From Cryomorpha ignava (GTDB lineage Bacteria > Bacteroidota > Bacteroidia > Flavobacteriales_D > Cryomorphaceae), in NCBI RefSeq assembly GCF_010686655.1, contig NZ_JAAGVY010000008.1, forward strand, positions 62,001-126,000: a DNA stretch of 64,000 bases, given 5' to 3'. Positions 40,641 to 42,612 of this stretch are shown here, one piece after another. The position numbers and the translations under genes are program-made. Under the pieces are notes generated by a model. The model saw only the letters and a program-made list of their open reading frames with translations. It had not been told where the DNA came from and searched no databases. Within the stretch, counting starts at the first letter, position 1. Every line of letters begins with the position of its first letter.

Positions 40641-41699
40641 TTAAGCCGTTTGTATTTGAGTTGCTTTTAGAGGTTTTGTGATTTTTGGATTCATTACCGC
40701 AAACCAGAGTGGCGGAATAAGGCTAAGAAGCATCATGCCGGGATAGCCGGTAGGCATTTGCGGGCTGTGGTCGTGGTGTTCCAATATTTGATATTTCTTT
40801 TGAGGTTGGAAGTGGTGGTCGCTGTGCCGCGAAAGTTCAAAAAGCATGAGCCTGCCAATTGCGTGGTTGCTATTCCACGAGTGGGTTGGTTGCACCTTCT
40901 CGTATCTGAAATCGGTTATTTTTGAGCGCATCAATCCGTAGTGTTCTATATAATTCACTGTTTCGAGCATCAAGAAGCCTATAATCGCTGCACCTGTGTA
41001 CCAGATCAGAATTTCCAATCCAAAAGTGAAACCGATAAGCAACCAGAAAGCTATTTGAATAAGCTGAAACCTTAGCATTTCATTTTTCAGTGTAAAGGCT
41101 TTTTGGTTTTGTCGGATAAGTCTTTGGTTTTCGATTTTCCAGGCAGAGATATAGCCCAAAACCACCGAGCGAATCCAAAATTGGTAAACTAATTCATTCC
41201 GTCGCGATGATGCGGGATCATCGGGTGTGCTCACATTTTTGTGATGGCCGCGGTTGTGCTCTATAAAAAAGTGCATGTAGGCACTTGGCAGTAAAAGTAT
41301 TTTGGCGAGATTTTGCTCAAATGTTTTGGTTCGGTGTCCGAGTTCGTGTGCAACATTTATTCCCAGCCCGCCAAGAATGACACCAAGCGAGAGTGTGAGA
41401 CCCATTTTTTCGTAAAACTCAAGCGGCATTTGCTGCAACGCAAATAGATAAAATACAATGCAGGCATATATTGCCGGAGCAACAAGGTAAAGCAGAACGT
41501 CATACTTCCGGTCTTCACGACGCATTTCATTCTCTGCGGTTTCCAGGTTTTGTGCATTTGGTTTGATCAGCAATTCCAATCCGGGAATAAAGCCAAAGGC
41601 AAAAATAACAGGTGCAAAAGTCACCCAATCTCCAAAGTTCAATCCGCAAAAGAATAGAACCGGCAGAATAAATGGCATCGCGTATTTTAGGTACTTCAT
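40641..41699 (-). CDS. alkB: Alkane 1-monooxygenase (AlkB-type, integral-membrane di-iron)
   Basis: A 352-residue membrane hydroxylase with about six transmembrane helices. The three histidine boxes are all present: HELGHRTK (residues ~118-125), EHNRGHH (147-153) and RHSDHH (~290), plus the AlkB-specific NYIEHYGLMR motif that separates it from fatty-acid desaturases and xylene monooxygenases. The family inserts oxygen at the terminal carbon of medium-chain n-alkanes, using rubredoxin as electron donor. No rubredoxin or rubredoxin reductase gene is adjacent. The frame continues upstream to 41795, but ATG 41699 gives the normal N-terminus. It is divergent from the phenylalanine hydroxylase gene. 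Confidence 0.88.
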   Translation of the reverse strand: MKYLKYAMPFILPVLFFCGLNFGDWVTFAPVIFAFGFIPGLELLIKPNAQNLETAENEMRREDRKYDVLLYLVAPAIYACIVFYLFALQQMPLEFYEKMGLTLSLGVILGGLGINVAHELGHRTKTFEQNLAKILLLPSAYMHFFIEHNRGHHKNVSTPDDPASSRRNELVYQFWIRSVVLGYISAWKIENQRLIRQNQKAFTLKNEMLRFQLIQIAFWLLIGFTFGLEILIWYTGAAIIGFLMLETVNYIEHYGLMRSKITDFRYEKVQPTHSWNSNHAIGRLMLFELSRHSDHHFQPQKKYQILEHHDHSPQMPTGYPGMMLLSLIPPLWFAVMNPKITKPLKATQIQTA

Positions 41700-41736
41700 G
41701 TTGGTGGAATTGAGTTGGAATAAAATTACGAAAAAT

Positions 41737-41768
41737 TTTGTTTGGTAAAAATTACTTTCATAGATTTG
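41737..41768 (+). promoter_or_regulatory. Promoter of the phenylalanine hydroxylase leader
   Basis: TTTG (41737-41740), a 20-bp spacer and TAGATTTG (41761-41768). Transcription would start near 41773, just before the leader-peptide ATG at 41777. Confidence 0.7.
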
Positions 41769-41776
41769 ATTTTCAA

Positions 41777-41833
41777 ATGAAAATGAACAACACATATACT
41801 TATTACTATTCTGATTATTTCGGGCTGGGATAA
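41777..41833 (+). CDS. Tyrosine-rich leader peptide of the attenuator
   Basis: An 18-codon frame, MKMNNTYTYYYSDYFGLG then TAA, starts right behind a good promoter. Five of the 18 residues are tyrosine (codons at 41795, 41801, 41804, 41807 and 41816) and one is phenylalanine. It ends 24 bases before a terminator hairpin that precedes the gene for phenylalanine 4-hydroxylase, whose product is tyrosine. This is the layout of a classic amino-acid attenuation leader. A second ATG at 41783 could also be the start. Translation and stalling are inferred. Confidence 0.75.
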   Translation: MKMNNTYTYYYSDYFGLG

Positions 41834-41857
41834 GTATATCACTTAATAAGTTACACT

Positions 41858-41890
41858 ACCCGGTTCGTTTGACCCGGGTTTTTTATTTTA
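41858..41890 (+). terminator. Attenuator terminator before phenylalanine hydroxylase
   Basis: ACCCGG (41858-41863) pairs with CCGGGT (41874-41879) and is followed by TTTTTTATTTT. It ends 5 bases before the ATG at 41896 and so must be passed to express the gene. The competing pairing GGCTGGG (41823-41829) with CCCGGTT (41859-41865, with G-U pairs) would break the 5' arm. A ribosome stopped at the leader's TAA (41831) would cover 41823-41829 and let the terminator form. One stalled at the Tyr codons would leave it free. Confidence 0.7.
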
Positions 41891-41895
41891 AAAAA

Positions 41896-42612
41896 ATGAT
41901 GATTCAGACCTATTCGGCTTACACCGATGAAGATTTTGCAGTTTGGAAATTGCTATACAGCCGCCAGATGGAGATTTTGCCAAAGCTCGCAGCAAAGGAA
42001 TACCTCGACGCGCTGGAGCGGGTTAATTTTACCGCCGACCGCATTCCACATTTTAACGAAGTGAATAAACTTCTGGGCGAAACTACAGGCTGGAAGATTG
42101 ATGTGGTGCCACATATTATCCCTGTCGAAGAGTTTTTTCCAAAACTGGAGCGTAAGACTTTCGGAGCTACCACCTGGTTGCGAAAAATGAGTGAGCTCGA
42201 TTACCTCGAAGAGCCCGATATGTTTCACGATGTTTTTGGCCATGTGCCGTTATTGAGTAATACAACCTTCTGCGCCTTCTTTCACGGACTCTCAAAAATT
42301 GCGATGAAGCATCTCGATAATCCCGAGATACTAGAAAAACTGGGCAGAATGTACTGGTTTACCATCGAGTTTGGCCTTATTCGCGAAAGCGGAGACCTTA
42401 AAATTTACGGCGCCGGAATTATGTCGTCGCACGGCGAAACGAAATATAGTGTGAGTAACGAACCGACCCACTTGCCTTTTGATGTAAAAACGATTCTGAA
42501 CAAGACGTATAACAATATGATTATTCAGGATACTTATTTTGTGATTGATAGCTTTGAGCAGCTTTTTGATTCTTTGGGAGAGATTGAGCGGCAGGTGGAT
42601 ACAAGTGATTAG
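41896..42612 (+). CDS. phhA: Phenylalanine 4-monooxygenase
   Basis: A 238-residue non-haem iron, pterin-dependent hydroxylase converting phenylalanine to tyrosine in the cytoplasm. Iron ligands are visible: two histidines in PDMFHDVFGHVPLL (near residues 111 and 116) and the glutamate in YWFTIEFGLI (~158). The substrate/pterin region (GATTWLRKMSELDYLEEPDM) is intact, and length matches bacterial enzymes. The frame reaches up to 41869, but that extension lies inside the terminator hairpin. ATG 41896 or 41899 is the start. Expression is probably controlled by the tyrosine-codon attenuator upstream. With no other aromatic genes nearby, it may serve biosynthesis of tyrosine or phenylalanine breakdown. 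Confidence 0.95.
   Translation: MMIQTYSAYTDEDFAVWKLLYSRQMEILPKLAAKEYLDALERVNFTADRIPHFNEVNKLLGETTGWKIDVVPHIIPVEEFFPKLERKTFGATTWLRKMSELDYLEEPDMFHDVFGHVPLLSNTTFCAFFHGLSKIAMKHLDNPEILEKLGRMYWFTIEFGLIRESGDLKIYGAGIMSSHGETKYSVSNEPTHLPFDVKTILNKTYNNMIIQDTYFVIDSFEQLFDSLGEIERQVDTSD

Follow-up and report, generated by a model that had tools for sequence, protein, structure and literature searches.

In the trp, his and phe attenuators of Enterobacteria, codons for the end product of the pathway lie within a short leader open reading frame (ORF), the leader RNA can form 1:2, 2:3 and 3:4 hairpins, and a terminator stands just before the regulated gene. Within the Bacteroidota, leader-peptide candidates and structured 5' elements have been reported before amino acid operons of Flavobacterium psychrophilum, with pheA and hisG named (PMC9723704), and the Bacteroid-trp RNA motif (RF01692) is likewise a candidate cis-regulatory RNA (PMC2864571). 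Short candidate regulatory ORFs with Phe and Tyr codons are also on record, located before genes of shikimate metabolism and not before phenylalanine hydroxylase (PMC6429828). Control of phenylalanine hydroxylase itself has been described for the phhABC operon of Pseudomonas, where PhhR acts together with sigma-54 (PMC1173090); PhhR is, however, a DNA-binding activator of a catabolic operon and not an RNA attenuator. In keeping with what an earlier note on this DNA had supposed, no earlier description of attenuation of a phenylalanine hydroxylase was found in the open-access literature searched. No Rfam family corresponds to it.

The window analysed here, a stretch of 64,000 nucleotides from Cryomorpha ignava, contains a phhA gene whose product matches NF008877 and TIGR01267 above cut-offs (NCBIfam) and Biopterin_H (Pfam). 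Clustered codons, a terminator before the gene, a mutually exclusive antiterminator, suitable geometry and a gene whose product makes the regulatory amino acid are all found at this locus (41761-41898), none of them seemingly by accident. By its sequence the element belongs to the ribosome-mediated transcription attenuators, among which its target is unusual; its distribution is wide. It differs from the trp, his and phe attenuators in using Tyr codons, in its target, a pterin-dependent oxygenase converting Phe to Tyr, in its phylum, and in a leader AUG that coincides with or adjoins the predicted 5' end, leaving no room for a Shine-Dalgarno site. With the F. psychrophilum elements it shares the phylum, the TAnnTTTG promoter and the suspected mechanism, although the main text of that study contains neither phhA nor Tyr and the mechanism is not worked out there (PMC9723704). 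The features of the locus are collected in Table 1.

Table 1. Features of the phhA leader region of C. ignava, in window coordinates
Feature	Position	Strand	Basis
Two TTTG copies, -33 type elements	41737-41740, 41741-41744	+	sequence
-7 promoter box TAGATTTG, consensus TAnnTTTG	41761-41768	+	sequence; box spacing rule from PMC9723704
Leader peptide ORF MKMNNTYTYYYSDYFGLG, 18 codons and stop	41777-41833	+	sequence; Tyr-rich leaders in relatives
Likely control codons Tyr7, Tyr9, Tyr10, Tyr11 (TAT ACT TAT TAC TAT)	41795-41809	+	ribosome-position folds; Tyr clusters in relatives
1:2 hairpin of untranslated RNA, predicted to hide the antiterminator arm	41794-41839	+	minimum-energy fold, window sequence only
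Antiterminator 5' arm CGGGCTGGG, overlapping the leader ORF at its 3' end	41821-41829	+	arm pairing in relatives; folds
Terminator hairpin ACCCGGTTC-GTTT-GACCCGGGT	41858-41879	+	sequence; counterparts in relatives; folds
T-rich tract of terminator	41880-41889	+	sequence
phhA, phenylalanine 4-monooxygenase, pterin-dependent; controlled gene	41896-42612	+	NCBIfam, Pfam
Divergent gene upstream of phhA, fatty-acid-desaturase-family membrane protein	40641-41795	-	PF00487

The leader and its alternative structures

The leader ORF encodes five Tyr and one Phe among its 18 codons, as had been read earlier from the same letters. The terminator stem is formed by arms 41858-41866 and 41871-41879 with one internal mismatch; its outer six pairs are the ACCCGG/CCGGGT noticed before, and TTTTTATTTT follows 3' of the stem. 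The earlier note had placed the end of the terminator 5 bases before the phhA start, and this distance needs correction, as 16 nt separate the stem, and about 6 nt the T-run, from the ATG at 41896. The alternative pairing then proposed, seven base pairs between 41823-41829 and 41859-41865, is present and slightly longer: 41821-41829 pairs with 41859-41867 over 9 bp, three of them G-U, so that the latter segment is common to the antiterminator and the terminator 5' arm. In folds of a transcript ending at 41872 the antiterminator forms at -13.9 kcal/mol. The leader as a whole folds at -29.2 kcal/mol against -18.2 kcal/mol for shuffled sequence, better than all 200 of 200 dinucleotide shuffles (z -3.7).

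Folds calculated for successive ribosome positions are consistent with the suggested geometry, in which a stalled ribosome frees the antiterminator arm and one at the stop codon covers it, and so is the spacing in relatives. With the ribosome at Tyr7-Tyr11 and the transcript extended to 41872, the 9-bp antiterminator forms; once the ribosome has moved to Tyr14 or the stop codon, it is lost and only the terminator is left. The Tyr14 codon (41816-41818) lies too near the antiterminator arm, and the likely control codons are thus Tyr7, 9, 10 and 11. A wait at the Tyr codons, previously put near 41801-41809, is accordingly retained in the folds with the codons concerned refined as in Table 1. In the completed RNA the terminator (-15.3 kcal/mol in the fold) prevails over the antiterminator, so the switch must be kinetic, as in other attenuators.

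The promoter had been described as TTTG, 20 nt and a box, and this arrangement is present, with the second TTTG copy reducing the gap to the -7 box to 16 nt. In F. psychrophilum the TAnnTTTG box spans -12 to -5 relative to the transcript start, and leaderless mRNAs make up only 5.5% (PMC9723704). Applied to the window, where the first base of the box lies at -16 from the leader AUG, this spacing predicts a transcript start near 41773 and a 5' untranslated region of about 4 nt at most, and the leader ORF is likely to be leaderless or nearly so, a point that the earlier note does not make. The same box is found in exact form ahead of the ORF in 34 of the 52 distinct leaders from related genomes described below; among these 34 its first base is at -12 from the AUG in 17 and at -13 in 5, and closer in none. 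A box 12-13 nt before the AUG predicts a leaderless or nearly leaderless leader mRNA, and in these 22 leaders the predicted transcript start falls on the A of the AUG or on the base preceding it. From this promoter spacing, attenuation is predicted to be able to operate with ORFs that are leaderless or almost so, in bacteria that do not use Shine-Dalgarno initiation.

Together these features make ribosome-mediated transcription attenuation of phhA by charged tRNA-Tyr very probable. RNA polymerase would start at about 41773, and a ribosome would initiate at an AUG at, or a few nucleotides from, the 5' end. When Tyr-tRNA is ample, the ribosome would reach the stop codon at 41831 and cover 41821-41829, the terminator (41858-41889 with its T-tract) would form, and phhA would not be transcribed. 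When Tyr-tRNA is short, the ribosome would wait at Tyr7-Tyr11, and 41821-41829, left uncovered, could pair with 41859-41867 ahead of the synthesis of the terminator's 3' arm; polymerase would then read into phhA, and the enzyme produced would hydroxylate Phe to Tyr. Should translation fail altogether, the 1:2 hairpin would hide the arm and termination would be the default. In this scheme we infer the transcript start, the translation of the leader, the efficiency of termination and the response to Tyr.

In the host genome at large, among 20 loci inspected from a search with the pattern TAYNNNTAYTAYTAY, only the phhA leader (L228) was recognised by eye as a Tyr leader; the search was not exhaustive, as the phhA leader itself escaped an automated scan that applied a stricter terminator score. 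One further locus of the 20 (L225) also lies within a 20-codon open frame.

Distribution and covariation in Bacteroidota

The phhA loci were gathered from named genomes and from others in the family, order and class of the host, giving 184 upstream regions. To count as Tyr-clustered, a short ORF had to contain 3 or more Tyr within 6 codons, and the terminator had to follow the ORF stop by no more than about 110 nt. The ORF alone was found in 62 of the 184 regions in sense and in 10 in antisense orientation. The combination of ORF and terminator was found in 59 regions in sense (32%) and never in antisense; the control windows drawn from the rest of the same loci, 1,572 in number, contained it once (0.06%). 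It is thus about 500 times commoner upstream of phhA than in the controls. The 59 positives include some duplicates, owing to overlap between the two collections, and also a few distant hits; dropping identical leaders and one doubtful case (L123) leaves 52 distinct leaders, which span 17 family labels and, in addition, named species such as Echinicola shivajiensis (L045). The comparison across Flavobacteriales that the earlier note had proposed, of Tyr-rich frames, hairpins and covariation upstream of phhA, is therefore positive in many families of the class, and a large and directly testable set of attenuators is added in a phylum for which few have been described.

The leader peptides are alike in little but the Tyr cluster, as illustrated by MNFNNNTYYYFLSN (L083), MQKQNTYYYYRFHLGESEM (L112), MKQTSTYTTYYYPPTFIGTGVYCSFC (L004) and MLFANAYYYHYYHATPARNGSFMF (L153). 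Tyr accounts for 20% of leader residues, encoded by TAT in 163 and TAC in 47 cases. An enrichment of NAY codons (Asn, His, Asp and Tyr), which would have hinted at queuosine, was considered and dropped, Asp being the rarest leader residue (0.9%).

The attenuator is lineage-specific and not universal. Many phhA genes are found without the element, even in genomes without tyrA, as in 21 of 22 genomes of family f9, where a single leader occurs. Homologous regions lacking Tyr frames or hairpins had been named beforehand as evidence against the attenuator; they exist in some lineages, f9 among them. Around the tyrA genes of tyrA-positive genomes, the search for Tyr leaders found none.

Covariation between the two arms of the antiterminator was assessed by taking, for each leader, the best pairing that the sequence downstream of the final Tyr codon of the cluster can form with the 5' arm of its own terminator. 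Summed over the 52 leaders, own pairs reach -644 kcal/mol versus -466 kcal/mol (SD 17) for permuted partners, and 0 of 20,000 permutations were as good. The result holds within family f8 alone, which belongs to the same order as the host (n=17; 0 of 10,000 permutations as good as own pairs), and own arms exceed shuffled arms with a mean z of -2.4. The arms vary among lineages and change together, with compensatory pairs such as GGTCAGG/CCTGATC (L083), GGAGCGG/CTGCTCC (L060), CAGAGG/CCTCTG (L086) and GGATTAGG/CCTAATCC (L045). The antiterminator arm begins at a median of 13 nt past the final Tyr codon of the cluster and reaches close to the leader stop, and the terminator in relatives begins about 26 nt past that stop. 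Given the size of the ribosome footprint, such spacing would be expected of an arm that a ribosome stalled at Tyr just leaves free and a ribosome at the stop covers.

At L191 (genome G432), about 17 nt before the phhA match, there is likewise a strong terminator, and its antiterminator arm is almost perfect (-25.5 kcal/mol); the leader there, MMNQTAKCFCLNIRPVVDGVGLYCRYGS, is not Tyr-clustered, and tyrA is present in this genome.

Tyrosine supply and the role of phhA

In the host genome, which is 99.85% complete, neither tyrA (prephenate dehydrogenase, PF02153) nor pheA (prephenate dehydratase, PF00800) was detected with models that match in nearly all control genomes. Chorismate synthase, pterin-4a-carbinolamine dehydratase and 4-hydroxyphenylpyruvate dioxygenase (HPPD) are present. 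By known enzymes, phhA is therefore the only detectable route of the host to Tyr, starting from Phe. Uptake of Phe is probably needed, and a non-homologous enzyme may replace tyrA or pheA. The proposal that scarcity of charged tRNA-Tyr turns on phhA thus gains support from the missing tyrA and pheA in addition to the comparative data, covariation and geometry, all at the level of sequence. Several relatives are likewise without tyrA and pheA despite having chorismate synthase, and the genomes of host and relatives suggest wide Phe auxotrophy among them.

Mutant fitness data from Echinicola vietnamensis support a Tyr-biosynthetic role of phenylalanine hydroxylase (PMC7311316), and its congener E. 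shivajiensis carries the Tyr-rich leader noted above. The pterin dehydratase gene directly follows phhA in several relatives (G186, G141, G017), so that in these genomes one attenuator would control both the enzyme and the recycling of its cofactor. With this element, an enzyme that is mostly treated as catabolic gains a defined regulatory circuit, and the case for phenylalanine hydroxylase as a biosynthetic enzyme is strengthened for many Bacteroidota without prephenate dehydrogenase.

The catabolic HPPD is encoded in 54 of 54 genomes tested, and phhA may serve catabolism as well. It could be argued from this that the attenuator is real and that phhA mainly serves breakdown of Phe and Tyr, with the Tyr codons gauging general starvation; in family f79 (G484, G530, G622, G588; for example L175-L177 and L182) phhA indeed lies directly behind the HPPD gene. 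These f79 genomes with the catabolic gene order, however, have tyrA and no Tyr leader, the leader-bearing genomes are mostly without tyrA and without the HPPD-phhA order, and induction at low Tyr makes little sense for Tyr breakdown, which together render such a role improbable as the main one. Whether the leader tracks loss of tyrA was considered separately: tyrA occurs in 2 of 43 leader-positive versus 11 of 60 leader-negative genomes, a difference in the right direction that is not significant (p = 0.07) and not independent of phylogeny, and such a relationship is not claimed. Family f9 is without tyrA as well as largely without the leader.

Algoriphagus-type leaders and other readings of the element

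Algoriphagus-type genomes have the same pair of hairpins with a different leader, MNPTPRT[YF][VI]HHS..., in which His codons are at least as prominent as Tyr codons. It is found upstream of phhA at L006, L013, L024, L036, L070 and about 30 further loci, some with GTG starts. Across 34 distinct sequences the amino acids at positions 2-7 and 10-12 never change and their codons vary synonymously, which suggests selection on the peptide itself. In family f27, four genomes carrying either this leader or the related His/Tyr leader found in Litoribacter were tested, and all four have tyrA; G569 of this family, which is without tyrA, carries an ordinary Tyr leader (L153).

A peptide fixed in its amino acids and free in its codons would be expected if the leader sensed through the nascent chain, as an arrest peptide for free Tyr, Phe or another ligand, instead of through scarcity of charged tRNA-Tyr. 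For the element in general we regard this as quite unlikely, since the other lineages, the host included, have largely unrelated leaders save for the Tyr cluster, which fits codon sensing. Tentatively, both kinds of leader might be accommodated in one picture that we consider possible, if doubtful: class-wide attenuators of Bacteroidota with a leaderless leader ORF, acting on phhA as the sole detectable source of Tyr, as in animals, with the tyrA-containing Algoriphagus lineage having drifted to the fixed His/Tyr peptide NPTPRT[YF][VI]HHS, maybe a nascent-chain sensor.

A terminator near a start codon could also belong to an upstream transcription unit, in which case the Tyr ORF would be accidental. 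The upstream gene is divergent, however, and the terminator before phhA is therefore not its own; the enrichment over control windows and the covariation of the arms with the end of the leader further make this explanation highly improbable. The product of that gene has histidine motifs that resemble those of alkane 1-monooxygenase.

A T-box, binding tRNA, or another ligand-binding riboswitch would equally sense Tyr supply through a terminator and an antiterminator, but can practically be set aside in favour of Tyr-codon attenuation: no tool result favours it, the conserved parts are only the Tyr ORF and the two alternative hairpins, and Rfam gave, for 41500-42100 and up to E=5, just two weak matches to unrelated sRNAs, and for 20 related loci no relevant family at the gathering threshold, with the T-box and Bacteroid-trp RNA models unmatched. 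The Rfam search also located an unrelated cobalamin riboswitch shortly downstream of phhA in one of the relatives (L150:2256-2444).
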